DNA of 64,000 nt from Carbonactinospora thermoautotrophica (GTDB taxonomy: Bacteria; Actinomycetota; Actinomycetes; Streptomycetales; Carbonactinosporaceae), in the NCBI RefSeq assembly GCF_001543895.1, contig NZ_JYIJ01000017.1:62001-126000 (forward strand). Direction: 5' to 3'. This document shows, piece after piece, positions 16,348 through 56,750 of the stretch. Position 1 is the first letter of the stretch. Every line of letters begins with the position of its first letter. The position numbers were made by a program, and so were the translations under genes. The notes beneath the pieces are model-generated. The model ran no database searches. It saw only the letters and a program-made list of their open reading frames with translations, and was not told the origin of the DNA.

Positions 16348-16425
16348 TCAACGGCAACACGAGCAGGACCACACTCGACCCAGGTCGATGTGGCCCCGGC
16401 TCACCAGGCACAGGCTGATCGGCAT
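16348..16425 (-). CDS. Cys-rich leader peptide (LVSRGHIDLGR type)
   Basis: A 25-codon frame starts at ATG 16425 and ends TGA at 16348-16350. It contains LCLVSRGHIDLGR followed by WSCSCCR: five Cys in all, four of them in or next to the last 7 codons. This is the signature of the putative leader peptides found before sulfur-assimilation genes in actinobacteria, thought to couple translation of Cys codons to expression downstream. TTGACG lies 36 nt upstream of the ATG (16456-16461). The SsuD-like gene begins 197 nt downstream. Confidence 0.8.
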   Translation of the reverse strand: MPISLCLVSRGHIDLGRVWSCSCCR

Positions 16426-23117: not shown

Positions 23118-23198
23118 TCAGCGGGAACAGAGAGCGCTGGACATACGCCCGAAGTCGACGTGCGGTCGACTGACGAGAAGCGCCCCAACGCCTGACAT
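23118..23198 (-). CDS. Leader peptide (LVSRPHVDFGR type)
   Basis: A 26-codon frame from ATG 23198 contains ALLVSRPHVDFGR followed by SSALCSR, closed by TGA at 23118-23120. It carries the HVD signature and one terminal Cys. The SsuA-like gene starts 179 nt downstream. TGGACG, a weak -35 match, lies 38 nt upstream of the ATG. The short distance to the stop of the HEAT-repeat gene (23377) means it has its own promoter in 23199-23376. Confidence 0.75.
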   Translation of the reverse strand: MSGVGALLVSRPHVDFGRMSSALCSR

Positions 23199-23376
23199 GG
23201 CGCGTGACGACGCCGCAGCGTCCCGCTGACCGTCCAGGTGATCCCACATGCTGGTCAGGCACCGTCGCATGCCCGCATGTCGATCAGCGGTCCCCAGCGG
23301 GTTCCAGGCTCGACGCGCGGCGGGATCGCCGGCGACCGGGCGCGCCGTGCGCCGGCCGGCGCGTCCCGGGTGACGG

Positions 23377-24279
23377 CTAGCGGATGCCACGGCTGATCGC
23401 GAGCCGGGCGTAGGCGCGCACGTCGGCGTCGGAGTCGTTGAGCGCGTGGGTGAGGCCGTACCGCACCTCGGGGTGGTCGTCCACCCACCGGGCCAGGGAG
23501 CGGACCGCGGCCTTGCGCACGTCGATGTGGAAATCGGCGAGCGCGGCCAGCAGGGGCGTGATCGCGAGGCGTGGGGCGGCGGCGCCCAGGGCTGTGGCCG
23601 CGCCCTTGCGTACCTCCCAATTCGGGTCGGAGAGGGCGTCCACGGCCAGTCGGTCCAGGGGCGTGGGAGTGCCCAGGGGTGCGGCGGACTCCAGCGCCGC
23701 CGCGCGGACGAGCGGATCCGCGTCGAGGGCGAGGTCCGCCAAGGTGTCCGCGGCGGAGGCGGCGCCGATGGCCGCGAGGCCCTTCGCCACGGCGATCCGG
23801 ATCTCGCGGGACTCGTCCGTGGCGGCCCACTCGAGGGCGTCGGGGGCGTCGAGCGCGACCAGACCGCGGACGGCCTCGACCCGGACCGCGACGTCCGGAT
23901 CGGCCAGCGCGCGGGCGAAGACGTTCCGATCGCCGAGGCGCAGGGCGCGTAGCAGGTCGAGGGCGGCGACGCGGACCACCGGGTCCGGGCTGTAGCTGGC
24001 ATCCATGAGCAGCTCACCCAAGTCGGCGTCGGGTTCCAGCACCTCACGCAGCTCCCGCAGCCCGGCGGCCGCGGCCCGGCGGACCTCCGCCGACTCGTCG
24101 CCCATCGCCCGGGCCAGCGCCGCTCCGGCGCCCACCGGGACCGTCTCGGTGAGCAGGTCCACCGCTGCCTTGCGTACCTGGGGGGCGGGATCGGTCAGGT
24201 ACCCGGCAAGGTCGGACAAGTCGGGTTCCTCCTCGGCGAGGCGCAGCAGTTCGAGGATGCGCGCGTCGGGGGTGGTCAC
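23377..24279 (-). CDS. HEAT-repeat protein
   Basis: GTG 24279 has GAGGAGG upstream and overlaps the stop of the flavoprotein gene (GTGA), giving 300 residues. The protein is made of about eight or nine HEAT-like helical repeats, with recurring units such as DPAPQVRKAAVDLL, DESAEVRRAAAAGL, DPDVAVRVEAVRGL, DPNWEVRKGAATAL and DSDADVRAYARLAI. No signal peptide or catalytic motif is seen. It is the last gene of the ferredoxin-transporter-flavoprotein operon. Repeat proteins of this kind act as scaffolds or maturation factors (family knowledge); here it may bind the flavoprotein or ferredoxin (inference). Confidence 0.88.
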   Translation of the reverse strand: MTTPDARILELLRLAEEEPDLSDLAGYLTDPAPQVRKAAVDLLTETVPVGAGAALARAMGDESAEVRRAAAAGLRELREVLEPDADLGELLMDASYSPDPVVRVAALDLLRALRLGDRNVFARALADPDVAVRVEAVRGLVALDAPDALEWAATDESREIRIAVAKGLAAIGAASAADTLADLALDADPLVRAAALESAAPLGTPTPLDRLAVDALSDPNWEVRKGAATALGAAAPRLAITPLLAALADFHIDVRKAAVRSLARWVDDHPEVRYGLTHALNDSDADVRAYARLAISRGIR

Positions 24280-26018
24280 GGCAGGACCTCCTCGACGACC
24301 GCGTGGTGCCCGAAACCCTCGACCGGCACGAGGTACGGCTCCACCGGCCGCTTCAGGAACCGCATGTCGCCGTCGGGTCCCTTGACCAGGTTGAGGTGGC
24401 AGAACCACTCGGTGTCGTCGCGGTCCGGCAGGTCAGCCCGATCGTGGTACAGCCCCCAGCGGCTCTCGGTGCGTTCGAGGGAGGCACGGGCGGCCATCTC
24501 CGCGCAGTCGCGGATGAAGGTGACCTCCGCACAACGCATCAGCTCGTGCGGGGTGCGCGCCCCCATGCCGGCGATCTCGGTCTTCATCCGTTCGAACGCC
24601 TCCAGCGCGATGGTGAGCTTCGCCGCGGTCTTGGGTGGGGCCACGTAGTCGTTGACGAAGCGACGCAGCTTGTACTCGACCTGGTGCTGCGGTGGTCCGT
24701 CGGGGTTGCGCAGCGGGCGGTAGATCAGCTCGTGGGCGTCGAGGATCTGGTCCTCCGGCAGCGGGCCCGGCGCCTGGCCGGCGCGGGCGAACGCGGCGGC
24801 CTCAGCACCGGCGATGTCCCCGAAGACGAACGCGCCGAGCATGTAGTTGTGCGGCACGCAGGCGAGGTCGCCCGCGGCGTACAGGCCGGGGACCGTGGTG
24901 GCGGCGCGCTCGTCGACCCACACCCCCGACGCCGAGTGCCCGCTGCACAGGCCGATCTCGGAGATGTGCATCTCCACGTCGTGCGTGCGGTAGTCGTGGC
25001 CGCGGCCGGCGTGGAAGGTCCCGCGGGAGGGCCGCTCGGTGGTGTGCAGGATCTGCTCCAGCCGACGGATCGACTCCTCGGGCAGGTGGGTCAGTTTCAG
25101 GTAGATCGGGCCGCGGGCGGAGTCGATCTCCCGTTTCACCTCGGCCATCATCTGCCCGGACCAGTAGTCGCAGTCGACGAACCGCTCGCCCCGGTTGTTC
25201 ACCTGGTAGCCGCCGAACGGGTTCGCCACGTACGCGCAGGCCGGCCCGTTGTAGTCCTTGATCAACGGGTTGATCTGGAAGCACTCGATGCCGCTGAGCT
25301 CGGCACCGGCGTGGTACGCCATCGCATACCCGTCGCCGGCGTTGGTCGGGTTCTCGTACGTGCCGTACAGGTACCCGCTGGCCGGCAGGCCGAGCCGGCC
25401 GCACGCGCCGGTGGCGAGGATCACCGCGCCGGCCGCCACCGTCACGAACTCGCCGGTGCGCGTGTGGAAGCCGACCGCGCCGACCGCCCGGCCGCCGCGG
25501 GTCAGCACCCGCACGGGCATGACCCGGTTCTCGATGCGGATACGTTCGCGCATGGCGCGCTGGCGCAGCACCCGGTAGAGGACCTTCTTGACGTCCTTGC
25601 CCTCCGGCATGGGCAGCACGTAGCTGCCCGAGCGGTGGACCTGCCGGACGTGGTACTCGCCGTGCTCGTCCTTCTCGAACTTCACCCCGTACCGTTCCAG
25701 CCGCTGCACCATGGCGTAGCCGCGCGTGGCGGTCTGGTAGACGGTGCGCTGGTTCACGATGCCGTCGTTGGCGATCGTGATCTCCGCCACGTACTGCTCC
25801 GGTGTGGCCTTCCCCGGGATCACCGCGTTGTTGACCCCGTCCATGCCCATGGCGAGCGCGCCGGAGTGGCGTACGTGGGCCTTCTCCAACAGCAGCACGG
25901 ACGCGCCGGACTCCGCGGCGGTGAGCGCCGCCATCGTGCCGGCCGTGCCGCCGCCGATGACCAGAACGTCACACGCCAGTTCGCGGCGCCGTTCCGGCGG
26001 CGGAGCCTGAAAACTCAT
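24276..26018 (-). CDS. AprA/fumarate reductase-like FAD flavoprotein
   Basis: The 580-residue flavoprotein has the N-terminal FAD motif DVLVIGGGTAGTMAALTAAESG with LLLEKAHVRHSGALAMGMDG, and a C-terminal helical domain like succinate dehydrogenase, fumarate reductase and APS reductase alpha subunits. The central part includes INPLIKDYNGPACAYVANPFGG, DYWSGQMMAEV and TTVPGLYAAGDLACVPHNYMLGAF, where the FAD is completed. The neighbouring short ferredoxin would correspond to an AprB-like electron partner. APS reductases interconvert sulfite and APS, but I cannot confirm the substrate-binding residues, and fumarate reductase-type activity is also possible. It overlaps both neighbours by 4 nt. Confidence 0.88.
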   Translation of the reverse strand: MSFQAPPPERRRELACDVLVIGGGTAGTMAALTAAESGASVLLLEKAHVRHSGALAMGMDGVNNAVIPGKATPEQYVAEITIANDGIVNQRTVYQTATRGYAMVQRLERYGVKFEKDEHGEYHVRQVHRSGSYVLPMPEGKDVKKVLYRVLRQRAMRERIRIENRVMPVRVLTRGGRAVGAVGFHTRTGEFVTVAAGAVILATGACGRLGLPASGYLYGTYENPTNAGDGYAMAYHAGAELSGIECFQINPLIKDYNGPACAYVANPFGGYQVNNRGERFVDCDYWSGQMMAEVKREIDSARGPIYLKLTHLPEESIRRLEQILHTTERPSRGTFHAGRGHDYRTHDVEMHISEIGLCSGHSASGVWVDERAATTVPGLYAAGDLACVPHNYMLGAFVFGDIAGAEAAAFARAGQAPGPLPEDQILDAHELIYRPLRNPDGPPQHQVEYKLRRFVNDYVAPPKTAAKLTIALEAFERMKTEIAGMGARTPHELMRCAEVTFIRDCAEMAARASLERTESRWGLYHDRADLPDRDDTEWFCHLNLVKGPDGDMRFLKRPVEPYLVPVEGFGHHAVVEEVLP

Positions 26019-29121: not shown

Positions 29122-29349
29122 TCACCTGAGCAGGTAGGGAATGTTGACGGTCACCGCGCCGGTCGGGCAGCGCTCCGCGCAGGGACCGCAGTACCAGCAC
29201 TCGTCCACGTACATGTAGGCCTTGCCGGTGTCCGGGTGGATGGCCAGCGAGTCAAGCGGGCAGATGTCCACGCACAGCGTGCAGCCCTCGATGCACAGCG
29301 ACTCGTCGACCGTCACCGGGACGTCGACACGTTGGTTCACCAGCGCCAT
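29122..29349 (-). CDS. 4Fe-4S dicluster ferredoxin (AprB-like electron partner)
   Basis: From ATG 29349 the protein is 75 residues. It has two four-Cys clusters: CIEGCTLCVDICP and CWYCGPCAERCPTGAV, both CxxxCxxCxxxCP or CxxCxxCxxxCP type. It is the first gene after the leader peptide at 29511-29606 and heads an operon of six genes. The AprA-like flavoprotein is encoded 3 kb downstream in the same operon, so the two probably form an oxidoreductase. GGGGAGAAACC precedes the ATG; a longer frame to 29418 is not supported. Confidence 0.9.
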   Translation of the reverse strand: MALVNQRVDVPVTVDESLCIEGCTLCVDICPLDSLAIHPDTGKAYMYVDECWYCGPCAERCPTGAVTVNIPYLLR

Positions 29350-29510
29350 GGAGTGGTTTCTCCCCAGCAGGAACGGCGTTTCCGGGAACGCTGAAACACA
29401 CCCGCAGCAAATGATCACGCGCGACGGGTGGAATTACGCGACAGCGGTGAATTCCGGCGAATCAGACCGGAGACAATGAATGGAAGAACGGCCTTGTCGG
29501 ATATGGCGGG

Positions 29511-29606
29511 TCAGGCCGTGGACAGCCGGGCACGACAGAGCGAGCTGGCCTGCCGCCGCAAGTCGACATGCAGGCGCGCGACAAGGAGCTCGTCGTGCTG
29601 CGTCAT
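29511..29606 (-). CDS. Leader peptide (LVARLHVDLRR type)
   Basis: ATG 29606 opens 31 codons containing ELLVARLHVDLRRQASSLCR and ends TGA at 29511-29513. It has the HVD signature and one Cys. An upstream in-frame ATG at 29615 falls inside the -10 box, so 29606 is the better start. The ferredoxin gene begins 161 nt downstream. This puts the whole ferredoxin-to-HEAT operon under presumptive cysteine-responsive control. Confidence 0.82.
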   Translation of the reverse strand: MTQHDELLVARLHVDLRRQASSLCRARLSTA

Positions 29607-29614
29607 GCGACGCA

Positions 29615-29643
29615 TGTTTACAGGCCGATCGGAACAGCGTCAA
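29615..29643 (-). promoter_or_regulatory. Promoter of the ferredoxin operon leader
   Basis: On the minus strand TTGACG (29638-29643), 17-nt spacer, TAAACA (29615-29620), then 8 nt to the leader ATG. Both boxes are close to consensus, and the spacing predicts a leaderless leader-peptide mRNA. Confidence 0.65.
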
Positions 29644-29756: not shown

Positions 29757-30290
29757 TCACGCGGTGCGGCGTTTCCACGCCTCCCTGTTCGCGTACAGGA
29801 AATCCCCTTGACGTGGCTGGAACTTGTATCCGACCCGACGTACGGTCACGATGCAGCTCCGGTACACCGGGCCCAACTTTCGCCGCAGCCTGTTTATGTG
29901 GACGTCGACGGTTCTGGTCTCGCCGAGGTACTGCCGCCCCCACACGGCGGACAGGAGCTGGGCTCGGGTGAAGACGCGGAACGGGTGGGCGAGTAGGAAC
30001 GCGAGGAGCTCGAATTCCAGGAACGCCAGCGCCAGCGGCTCGCCTTCCACCAACACGACACGCAGGTCCAAGTCGAGCCAGAGGCTCTCGTACACGATAC
30101 GCCGTGAACGGCGGCCGGTGGAATTGGAATTCGTCGGCGCCCGTAGGAGGTTTTTTCTTTTCCTGGCGGAAGACGGAATCGTCACGCTGTGCAGCGGGAT
30201 GGCGGCGAGTCGCAAGCCCCGCTCTCCGCACTGCCAGGGCCGTACGAAAGGGACACGGGAGGCGTCACAGCGGAATTCACTTACGGGCAT
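29757..30290 (-). CDS. Receiver-less winged-helix (OmpR/PhoB-type) regulator
   Basis: Translation from ATG 30290, with GGAGAAGGGG upstream, gives 177 residues. Residues 85-170 form a Trans_reg_C winged helix: [48 protein letters not shown] and VRRVGYKF. The N-terminal 80 residues are short, Arg/Ser-rich and do not contain a response regulator receiver domain, so it is probably not phosphorylated by a histidine kinase. It lies between the leader/ferredoxin operon and tRNA-Cys. It is a good candidate regulator of the sulfur genes around it (inference). Confidence 0.8.
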
Positions 30291-30325
30291 GGCCCCTTCT
30301 CCGGTAAAACTGTAGTTGCCTTGGC

Positions 30326-30397
30326 TGGAGGCGGAGACGGGAATCGAACCCGTGGAAGGGGTTTTTGCAGACCCTCTGATCACTCAGCCACTCCGCC
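30326..30397 (-). tRNA. tRNA-Cys(GCA)
   Basis: The acceptor arms GGCGGAG (30391-30397) and CTCCGCC (30330-30336) pair perfectly, the T arm is ACGGGTTCGATTCCCGT, the anticodon loop reads CTGCAAA (anticodon GCA), the discriminator base is U as required for tRNA-Cys, and CCA is encoded (30326-30328). The anticodon stem is slightly irregular: GGGT/ACCC gives only four good pairs and an 8-nt loop, and the tRNA is short (69 nt before CCA). The D arm is also small. It lies 35 nt upstream of the winged-helix gene and 0.4 kb from a leader peptide. Confidence 0.85.
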
Positions 30398-30801: not shown

Positions 30802-30900
30802 TTAGCCGCGGGAGGGGAGGACGTGAACCCGACAAGCGGCGCTCGCCTGGCGACAGAAGTCGACGTGGAGGCGAGCGACCAGAAGCTCACGGGTGTGCAT
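30802..30900 (-). CDS. Leader peptide (LVARLHVDFCR type) without an adjacent operon
   Basis: ATG 30900 opens 32 codons with ELLVARLHVDFCRQASAACR, a close relative of the leader at 29511-29606, with two Cys. Downstream on the same strand there is about 400 bp without a supported gene, then tRNA-Cys and the winged-helix regulator. The gene it once controlled may be lost, or it may control the tRNA/regulator transcript. TTGACG lies 36 nt upstream of the ATG. Confidence 0.72.
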   Translation of the reverse strand: MHTRELLVARLHVDFCRQASAACRVHVLPSRG

Positions 30901-30936: not shown

Positions 30937-31318
30937 CTCCCACGATAGGGCGACTGTCGCGGCCTTCGGCGCCTGGGCGGTCAACACGCGATCGCGGGTT
31001 TCGATTTCAACCGGGAACTCCACCGTCACCCGTTCCGCAAGGGACGGCCCGGAAAGGCCACGCGAGCGCCGGCCTGGCCTCGCCGCGAACAGCTATAGGC
31101 GCCCCGGGACAGAGCGCCGGTCACCTGGAGGAATCCGGCGGCTTGCACCGGGCTCCGTCGCTCACGTCGCGCCGCGACCACGACGCCCGCCGAGCGCTCC
31201 GGCACCAGCGCTCCAGCCCGCCTGCGACGGATCGGCGTGAGCTCCCGCCCGCCGGCTCCTCGCCCGATGCGTGAGACGGCTCTTCCGCCGCCCGCGGACG
31301 CCGGTTAACCTCAGGATC
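30937..31318. other. Gap between divergent leader peptides
   Basis: This 380-bp stretch separates the minus-strand leader (30802-30900) and the plus-strand leader (31319-31405). No gene is supported. It contains the promoter elements for both: TTGACG at 30931-30936 (minus) and TAACCT at 31306-31311 (plus). Confidence 0.4.
31306..31311 (+). promoter_or_regulatory. -10 box for the EgtA-like leader
   Basis: TAACCT matches the actinobacterial TANNNT -10 consensus and ends 7 nt before the GTG of the leader at 31319, the spacing of a leaderless transcript. No good -35 is seen at the expected place. Confidence 0.5.
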
Positions 31319-31405
31319 GTGATCAGCACGCTGCTCGTCTCCCGCAGGCACATCGACCTGCGACGAGTGTGCAGTGCGAGCTGTCCGGGTCCTGCGGACC
31401 GCTGA
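31319..31405 (+). CDS. Leader peptide (LVSRRHIDLRR type)
   Basis: GTG 31319 opens 28 codons containing STLLVSRRHIDLRR and then VCSASCPG, closed by TGA at 31403-31405. It has the HID signature and two Cys near the end. The EgtA-like gene starts 240 nt downstream on the same strand. It is leaderless if the TAACCT box is used. Confidence 0.75.
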   Translation: MISTLLVSRRHIDLRRVCSASCPGPADR

Positions 31406-31645
31406 ACCGCGACCGTCCCACGCCGCGGCACCGCCCCGCCTCAGCGCCGCTCTGAAGCGGCCATGGTCCTGCGGAGCCCGGCCCGCCCGTTCCCCTTCGC
31501 CGCGTAAGGCGGCATCCAGTCGGCACACCGCTGGCCGTGACCGGTAGGCAGCGGTAGGAGTGCCCGAACAGGACCGACCGGATCCGGCCGTCGCGCCGAT
31601 CGGTGCGCTGCGTCCACCTCAACTGATGTACGGAGAGCGAAGAAG

Positions 31646-32833
31646 ATGAGCATCCCCTTACGAGAGCCGGACGCGGAAGCCCATGTCGCCCGGGTGTGTT
31701 TCGAGACCCGTCCACCGCGCTTCGTCGCCGTCAAGTTGGGGTGGCGGGTGCACGACCCGCGCCGCGCCGGCCGGGCGCCGGAGCCGCACCAGGTGTCCGC
31801 CGCGCTGGCGCCGTCGGATCACTGGCCGGTCCACGGTCACCTGGCGAACCAACCGGACGGCATCCTGACCATCAGTTCGCAGCCGTTCTTCCGTCTGGAC
31901 GACTGTATCCGCCACACGGCGGCCGACCTCGCCCTGCTGCGCCGAAAGTTCGCCGCGGCAGGGCTTTCTCTCATCGACGGAACGCACCCGCCTTCCGTCC
32001 AGCCGACGGCCAGCCGCCGAGGCGCGGTGCCGCGCCAGGCGGCCGGCGAACACCGGGCGAGCCCGCACAGCGAGGCCGCGGTGCAGGTGTTCCTGGACGC
32101 CGGCACCGGCGACGACGGTCCGGCCAGCCTGCGTCACCGCTGGCAGGTGGCGCACGCGATCGGCCCGGTGCTGGTCGCGGCCTTCGCCAACTCGCCGATG
32201 AACCGCGGCCGACCCAGCGGCTGGCGCTCCACCCGGTTCGCCCTGCTGCACCGGCTCGACCGCCAGCCCATCCCGGTGTCCGACGCGGAGGAGGACCCGC
32301 GGGCCGCCTGGGCGCGCCGAGTGCTCGACGCCACGGTCCGCCTGCCCGGGATGCCCGGCCTCACCTTCCGGGACTGGATCCGGCACCGGACACCGCGCCC
32401 GCCCACCCTCGCCGACCTGGACCGGCACCTGGCGACGGTGACCGCGCCGATAAGGCCGCGCGGGCACCTGGAGATCGGCCTGGCGGATGCGCAGCCAGAC
32501 GACTGTTGGGTGGTCCCGCTCGCGGTGACCACCGCCCTGCTGGAGGACGCCGCAGCGTCCGACGCCGCGCTGGCCGCGACCGAGCGGCTGAGCCGTGATC
32601 GCCCCTGGACGCGCGCCGCCCGGTTCGGTCTCACCGACCCGGAACTCGCCGCCGCAGCCCTGGAATGCTTCGCCGCGGCCGAAGCCGCCCTGTCCCGGAT
32701 GGGTGTGACCGCCTCGGTCCACGAGGCGGTCACGGACTTCATCGAGCACTACGTGGCCCGGCGCCGCTGCCCGGCCGACGAACTGCTCACCCCTGCGCCG
32801 GTCGCCGCTTGTTCCGGCTGCCGGGGGTCATGA
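31646..32833 (+). CDS. EgtA-like glutamate-cysteine ligase homologue lacking expected catalytic residues
   Basis: The 395-residue protein is clearly related to EgtA, the glutamate-cysteine ligase of ergothioneine synthesis: VARVCFETRPPR, the block AVQVFLDAGTGDDGP, LAHAIGPVL-like VAHAIGPVLVAAFANSP, GWRSTRFALLHRLD and DAQPDDCWVVPLAVTTALLEDAA. However, the N-terminal Glu pair expected in V-E-L-E-W is replaced by VKLGW (residues 29-33), the Glu expected in the VELSS strand is replaced by Thr (ILTISS), and the Arg after LEI is Gly. These positions bind metal-ATP or substrate in the glutamate-cysteine ligase superfamily. It may be a pseudoenzyme or have a new activity. GGAGAG precedes the ATG, and a Cys leader lies upstream. 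Confidence 0.75.
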   Translation: MSIPLREPDAEAHVARVCFETRPPRFVAVKLGWRVHDPRRAGRAPEPHQVSAALAPSDHWPVHGHLANQPDGILTISSQPFFRLDDCIRHTAADLALLRRKFAAAGLSLIDGTHPPSVQPTASRRGAVPRQAAGEHRASPHSEAAVQVFLDAGTGDDGPASLRHRWQVAHAIGPVLVAAFANSPMNRGRPSGWRSTRFALLHRLDRQPIPVSDAEEDPRAAWARRVLDATVRLPGMPGLTFRDWIRHRTPRPPTLADLDRHLATVTAPIRPRGHLEIGLADAQPDDCWVVPLAVTTALLEDAAASDAALAATERLSRDRPWTRAARFGLTDPELAAAALECFAAAEAALSRMGVTASVHEAVTDFIEHYVARRRCPADELLTPAPVAACSGCRGS

Positions 32834-38779: not shown

Positions 38780-38857
38780 TCACAGACAACAGGCCTGCGC
38801 CACGACGCGCACGAAGTCCACGTAGCGCCGGGAGGTAAGAAGGGGCGAGATCGCCAT
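38780..38857 (-). CDS. Cys leader peptide (LTSRRYVDFVR type)
   Basis: ATG 38857 opens 25 codons: PLLTSRRYVDFVR, then AQACCL and TGA at 38780-38782. The usual H of HVD is Y here, and the two Cys codons are adjacent just before the end. It lies before the sfnG operon. The -10 box ends only 6 nt upstream of the ATG, so the mRNA is probably leaderless. Confidence 0.78.
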   Translation of the reverse strand: MAISPLLTSRRYVDFVRVVAQACCL

Positions 38858-38863
38858 GGCTCG

Positions 38864-56541: not shown

Positions 56542-56651
56542 GCGAACACCCGGCCCTGGTTCCCGTCACGCGGGCAGCGCCGTGACCGCCCTTCCCAGGC
56601 GTCCGGACCCGACCTGCGCGGGGAGCACGCCGCGGAGCAACTAGCATTCCC

Positions 56652-56750
56652 TGTGTCGCGACTGGCGCAGGCAAGGTGGAATCGACCACCGGGGAGCGAC
56701 ACCGAGACCGACCACGAGGACACGGACACCGCGCGCCTGGGTGCCTGGGT
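56652..56750 (+). ncRNA. ZTP riboswitch (pfl motif)
   Basis: The 5' part has GACTGGCG, then AAGGTGGAATCGACCACCGG and GGAGCGACA closing the first helix (TGTCG 56654-56658 with CGACA 56697-56701). The 3' part has GCGCGCCTGGGTGCCTGGG, which supplies the conserved pseudoknot and CCTGGG. This is the pfl consensus. It senses ZTP/ZMP, a signal of folate shortage, and lies 38 nt before the glyA start. TAGCAT at 56642-56647 is a plausible -10 box just upstream. Confidence 0.9.

Follow-up and report, generated by a model that had tools for sequence, protein, structure and literature searches.

A putative EgtA pseudoenzyme behind a cysteine leader peptide in a sulfur-scavenging island of Carbonactinospora thermoautotrophica

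In mycobacteria, short Cys-rich uORFs of the kind described below are translated and have been proposed to act as attenuators (PMC4633059). The locus studied here resembles the actinobacterial Ms4527A-type Cys leaders (NF042936) in having an LLVSRRHIDLxRVCSASC peptide 5’ of a gene in a sulfur island, but the gene behind this leader apparently encodes a dead ligase rather than a protein of sulfur uptake or oxidation. The encoded protein shares full-length homology and a predicted fold with EgtA (TIGR03444), but it falls under the family cut-off, is without the catalytic glutamates, the arginine and the substrate loop, lies outside the egt cluster and has a Cys leader. Similarly, a plant-type glutamate-cysteine ligase is the best fold match of its model, although the EPGGQxEL, RY and EMR residues common to the plant ligase and EgtA are missing. 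A further described system is found in trypanosomes, where dead paralogues, the AdoMetDC and deoxyhypusine synthase prozymes, control a live partner (PMC5201418, PMC3663545). Our locus likewise pairs an apparently dead paralogue with an intact copy, but fold and organism are unrelated, and a prozyme-like complex is here a proposal.

The window, which is the whole 64 kb stretch that was analyzed, carries on its plus strand a short ORF with a GTG start (31319..31405) encoding VISTLLVSRRHIDLRRVCSASCPGPADR. This peptide has the RRHIDL core and terminal Cys of the Ms4527A type and matched both NF042936 (E 7.6e-10) and NF042934 (E 3.1e-6). Its NF042936 score of 38.2 bits is under the curated cut-off of 45 and is the best of any Ms4527A-family match in the genome, and the Cys leader named in the initial annotation can be taken as a genuine member of this type. 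The leader ORF and the 46 bases upstream form a cassette (31273..31405, plus strand) that is 77% identical in DNA over 134 nt (E 3.5e-22) to the leader of L166 on contig C14, the similarity stopping at the leader’s stop codon; these leaders seem to have been copied within the genome. L166 itself is a methanethiol-oxidase-like (MtoX-like) gene, preceded by this nearly identical cassette. Between leader and gene lies an untranslated stretch (31406..31645, plus strand) in which no intrinsic terminator was found and which folded no better than shuffled sequence, and a terminator at this position was rejected. Cys leaders elsewhere in actinobacteria have likewise been described as having no intrinsic terminator (PMC1262725). 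When 80 canonical egtA genes were examined, a Cys leader was found within 1 kb of none of them. Taken from the leader’s sequence and position, cysteine control of the gene behind it is fairly well supported.

This leader is one of six Cys leaders in a sulfonate- and sulfone-scavenging island. The other five in the window are all on the minus strand, 5’ of an SsuD-like gene (~16348-16425), SsuA/permease (~23118-23200), ferredoxin/SsuA (~29511-29620), a winged-helix protein (~30802-30900) and an SfnG gene (~38780-38860). Genes of the island encode SsuA-type binding proteins, sulfonate permeases with their ATPase, and SsuD-, SsuE-, SfnB-, SfnG- and DszC-type oxidoreductases. Also in the island, a sulfonate ABC transporter is flanked by an AprA-like flavoprotein (24276-26018) and an AprB-like ferredoxin (29122-29418), both on the minus strand. 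Elsewhere in the genome such leaders stand 5’ of SsuA, SsuC, taurine dioxygenase and MtoX-like genes. The winged-helix protein (29757-30383, minus strand) consists of a lone Trans_reg_C domain with no receiver domain behind its Cys leader, and is possibly a regulator of the island. The genome’s only full-length tRNA-Cys match (30326-30397, minus strand) is also inside the island, flanked by two Cys leaders, and it is the charging of this tRNA that the island leaders would report. A ZMP/ZTP riboswitch (51.7 bits) was observed at 56648-56749 on the plus strand of the window.

The gene behind the plus-strand leader (31646..32833, plus strand) is an ORF of 395 amino acids with an ATG start, and a GGAG (31632-31635) is located 10 bases 5’ of this ATG. 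Profile searches placed its product, hereafter the copy, in the GCS2 superfamily (Pfam GCS2, E 2.6e-30), and the EgtA model TIGR03444 covered its full length (E 8.8e-76), which bears out the earlier description of an EgtA-type fold over most of the protein. However, the copy reached 255 bits against a curated TIGR03444 cut-off of 370.8, and it is 53% identical to the genome’s own EgtA. An AlphaFold2 model, built on an alignment of canonical EgtA sequences that biases it toward the EgtA fold, predicted the ligase fold with a mean pLDDT of 77.5 and a pTM of 0.81; pLDDT was below 50 at residues 113-142 and in the C-terminal tail. The best Foldseek match of this model was the Brassica juncea glutamate-cysteine ligase 2gwc (TM 0.73, E 6e-14), compared to a TM of 0.82 for a canonical EgtA modelled likewise.

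Across the GCS superfamily, glutamates hold Mg-ATP. In the copy the first of these motifs (31733..31741, plus strand), the E-x-E of strand 1, is replaced by K30 and G32 (E30K, E32G), so that V-E-L-E-W reads VKLGW. The second motif (31850..31870, plus strand) reads QPDGILT from Q69 to T75 in place of EPGGQLE, and the full change from EPGGQLELSS to QPDGILTISS includes E69Q, G71D, Q73I and E75T. The substrate loop, PRYxAME..DRxGPAGRxMM in EgtA (32000..32070, plus strand), is largely deleted or replaced, with about 9 residues of GPAGRxMM gone, and corresponds to the low-confidence residues 113-142 of the model. YHLTTLFPP is changed to RHLATVTAP, and the arginine that EgtA and the plant ligase carry after LE is now G278 (R278G; 32477..32479, plus strand). 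The VKLGW, the threonine of the LTISS strand and the LEIG in place of LEIR had been read correctly in the initial annotation; E69Q, G71D, Q73I, the substrate loop and the YHLTTLFPP motif are additional losses that it had missed. It had also named glutamates at shifted positions as what would overturn the claim of lost catalysis. When canonical egtA was compared with all frames of the locus, no shifted glutamates were found near the copy’s motifs, and the loss stands. The same comparison matched solely the ORF’s own frame and revealed no frameshifted remnant; compensating frameshifts were rejected.

Replacement of E30, E32, E69, G71, Q73, E75, Y131, Y260, F266, P267 and R278 was unique to the copy in alignments of EgtA from the order and the class. 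Among about 180 EgtA-type loci, the glutamates and arginine were kept wherever the motifs were readable, with one locus (L081) unresolved by the motif search and another (L092) deviating from EPGGQ only at the Q. The EPGGQxEL and RY motifs occur in both EgtA and the plant ligase, as does the arginine that follows LE, and all three are therefore superfamily features. Three Streptomyces paralogues with equally low TIGR03444 scores (260-285 bits) retain all catalytic residues, and divergence as such therefore does not explain the copy’s loss. These paralogues had been considered as further dead copies and were rejected on the same grounds. A divergent second EgtA-like family (L209, L210 and L211) occurs in some Streptomyces with complete catalytic residues and a different substrate loop (ALLC, LVPPVRACG), and its substrate may differ. 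With metal-binding roles assigned from conservation and general superfamily knowledge, the motif losses give good support to the view that the copy is catalytically dead as a ligase. A ligase with a different chemistry, as suggested earlier, or such a transferase is consistent with the predicted retention of the GCS2 fold, but with the Mg-ATP glutamates, the arginine and the substrate loop all gone we consider it very improbable.

A canonical egtA was found on another contig (C18; TIGR03444, 414 bits), followed by egtB and egtD, which answers the initial annotation’s call to look for a second, canonical gene. The copy lies outside this cluster and is not co-located with egtB, egtC or egtD, and given the canonical set elsewhere it is not needed as the ligase of the ergothioneine pathway. 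The source genome belongs to the order of Streptomyces and is the sole representative of its family among the genomes compared. No orthologue of the copy was detected in about 690 genomes or in the genome-contig collection (order and class scans, close scan and alignment scan), where nothing was closer to it than canonical EgtA. In the tree the copy grouped with the genome’s own EgtA with support of only 48/18, on a branch of ~1.1 compared to ~0.4 for the canonical copy (about 2.5-3 times longer). dS is near saturation, too high for dN/dS to be informative.

The copy might simply be an egtA duplicate that is decaying after loss of function, with a leader left over from the island; since GC-rich DNA acquires stop codons slowly, its frame would not yet have closed. 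Relaxed selection of this kind is a serious rival. The long branch and the failure to find orthologues agree with it, as do the several deleted or replaced loops. The copy agrees with the consensus at 68% of columns in the most invariant class and 64-66% in the moderately conserved class, a nearly flat profile, and loss was ~30-34% at conserved columns compared to 42% at moderately variable ones; such a small difference in loss between conserved and variable columns is what relaxed constraint would be expected to produce. GC3 is also slightly low (0.89, near the low end of the 0.86-0.99 seen for the window’s genes), and the normal codon bias first reported is only roughly right in this respect. 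The copy’s GC by codon position (0.76/0.58/0.89) is nevertheless retained, with values near those in other EgtA genes, and no frameshifted remnant accompanies it.

The frame is intact across all 395 codons, as first noted, and in neutral simulations started from the canonical gene it remained free of stops at a matching amount of amino-acid change in just ~1-6% of runs at plausible GC (0.65-0.70). These simulations were run without indels and so do not yet count the at least 3 indels in length-constant segments of the copy, all of which preserve the frame. An open frame by chance in such a GC-rich gene is rare, yet possible. Changed conserved codons that need at least two base changes made up 10 of 29 (34%), compared to 9-20% in the simulations, which indicates that catalytic loss is old rather than recent. 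Together with the near-normal GC3, the open frame, the in-frame indels and these multi-hit codons suggest that the frame persisted beyond the loss of catalysis. Of the class-wide invariant columns, 24/75 were lost, clustered near the active-site motifs (runs test p 0.004), and residues 144-198 and 324-377 kept every one. The argument that the intact frame speaks against simple decay was therefore upheld in part: simulations, in-frame indels and multi-hit codons disfavor decay, whereas the flat loss profile still fits it. On the basis of these patterns a retained protein with altered constraints is favored, though not decisively, and decay is rather unlikely without being a minor concern.

If the copy is retained, it might act alone, sensing or binding cysteine, another thiol or a metal through the old substrate pocket or through a new C-terminal tail. 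This tail extends past the canonical end (32789..32830, plus strand) with a CSGC motif (C389, C392), which together with C287 and control by a Cys leader would suit a sensor. The tail is modelled at low confidence and may be read-through past a lost stop, however, and the pocket has lost its arginine and had its substrate loop deleted, leaving a region of low confidence in the model. A Pfam profile search also found no DNA-binding or other output domain. We regard a stand-alone sensor as distinctly unlikely.

Our tentative preference, held at somewhat less than an even chance, is that the copy is a lineage-specific EgtA pseudoenzyme made under cysteine shortage and most likely binding another protein, with canonical EgtA the first candidate. 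An EgtA paralogue would have lost its ligase activity, stayed as a folded protein under selection, and been placed behind a Cys leader, to be made at cysteine shortage along with the neighboring sulfonate and sulfone scavenging genes. We infer the direction of this regulation: under shortage, ribosomes would slow on the leader, the copy would be expressed and the dead EgtA-like protein would accumulate. By analogy, a dead paralogue beside a live one most simply works through mixed complexes, in which the dead subunit would bind canonical EgtA and adjust, up or down, the flow of cysteine into gamma-glutamylcysteine and ergothioneine. Saving scarce cysteine would suggest a brake on EgtA. In Rhodococcus, however, EgtABCD levels increase with organic sulfur as the source (PMC8557817), and an activator fits this better than a brake. 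A regulator, one of the roles first proposed, is plausible and is still the best reading, although it is reached by inference.

A literature search found no dead-paralogue regulator in the EgtA/GCS2 ligase family. That the copy is the first pseudoenzyme of this family, binding canonical EgtA under cysteine attenuation and tuning the entry of scarce cysteine into ergothioneine, is in this complete form unlikely. A functional copy would reveal how actinobacteria adjust the synthesis of low-molecular-weight thiols to the cysteine available, and the EgtA/GCS2 ligase family would gain a dead-paralogue regulator.
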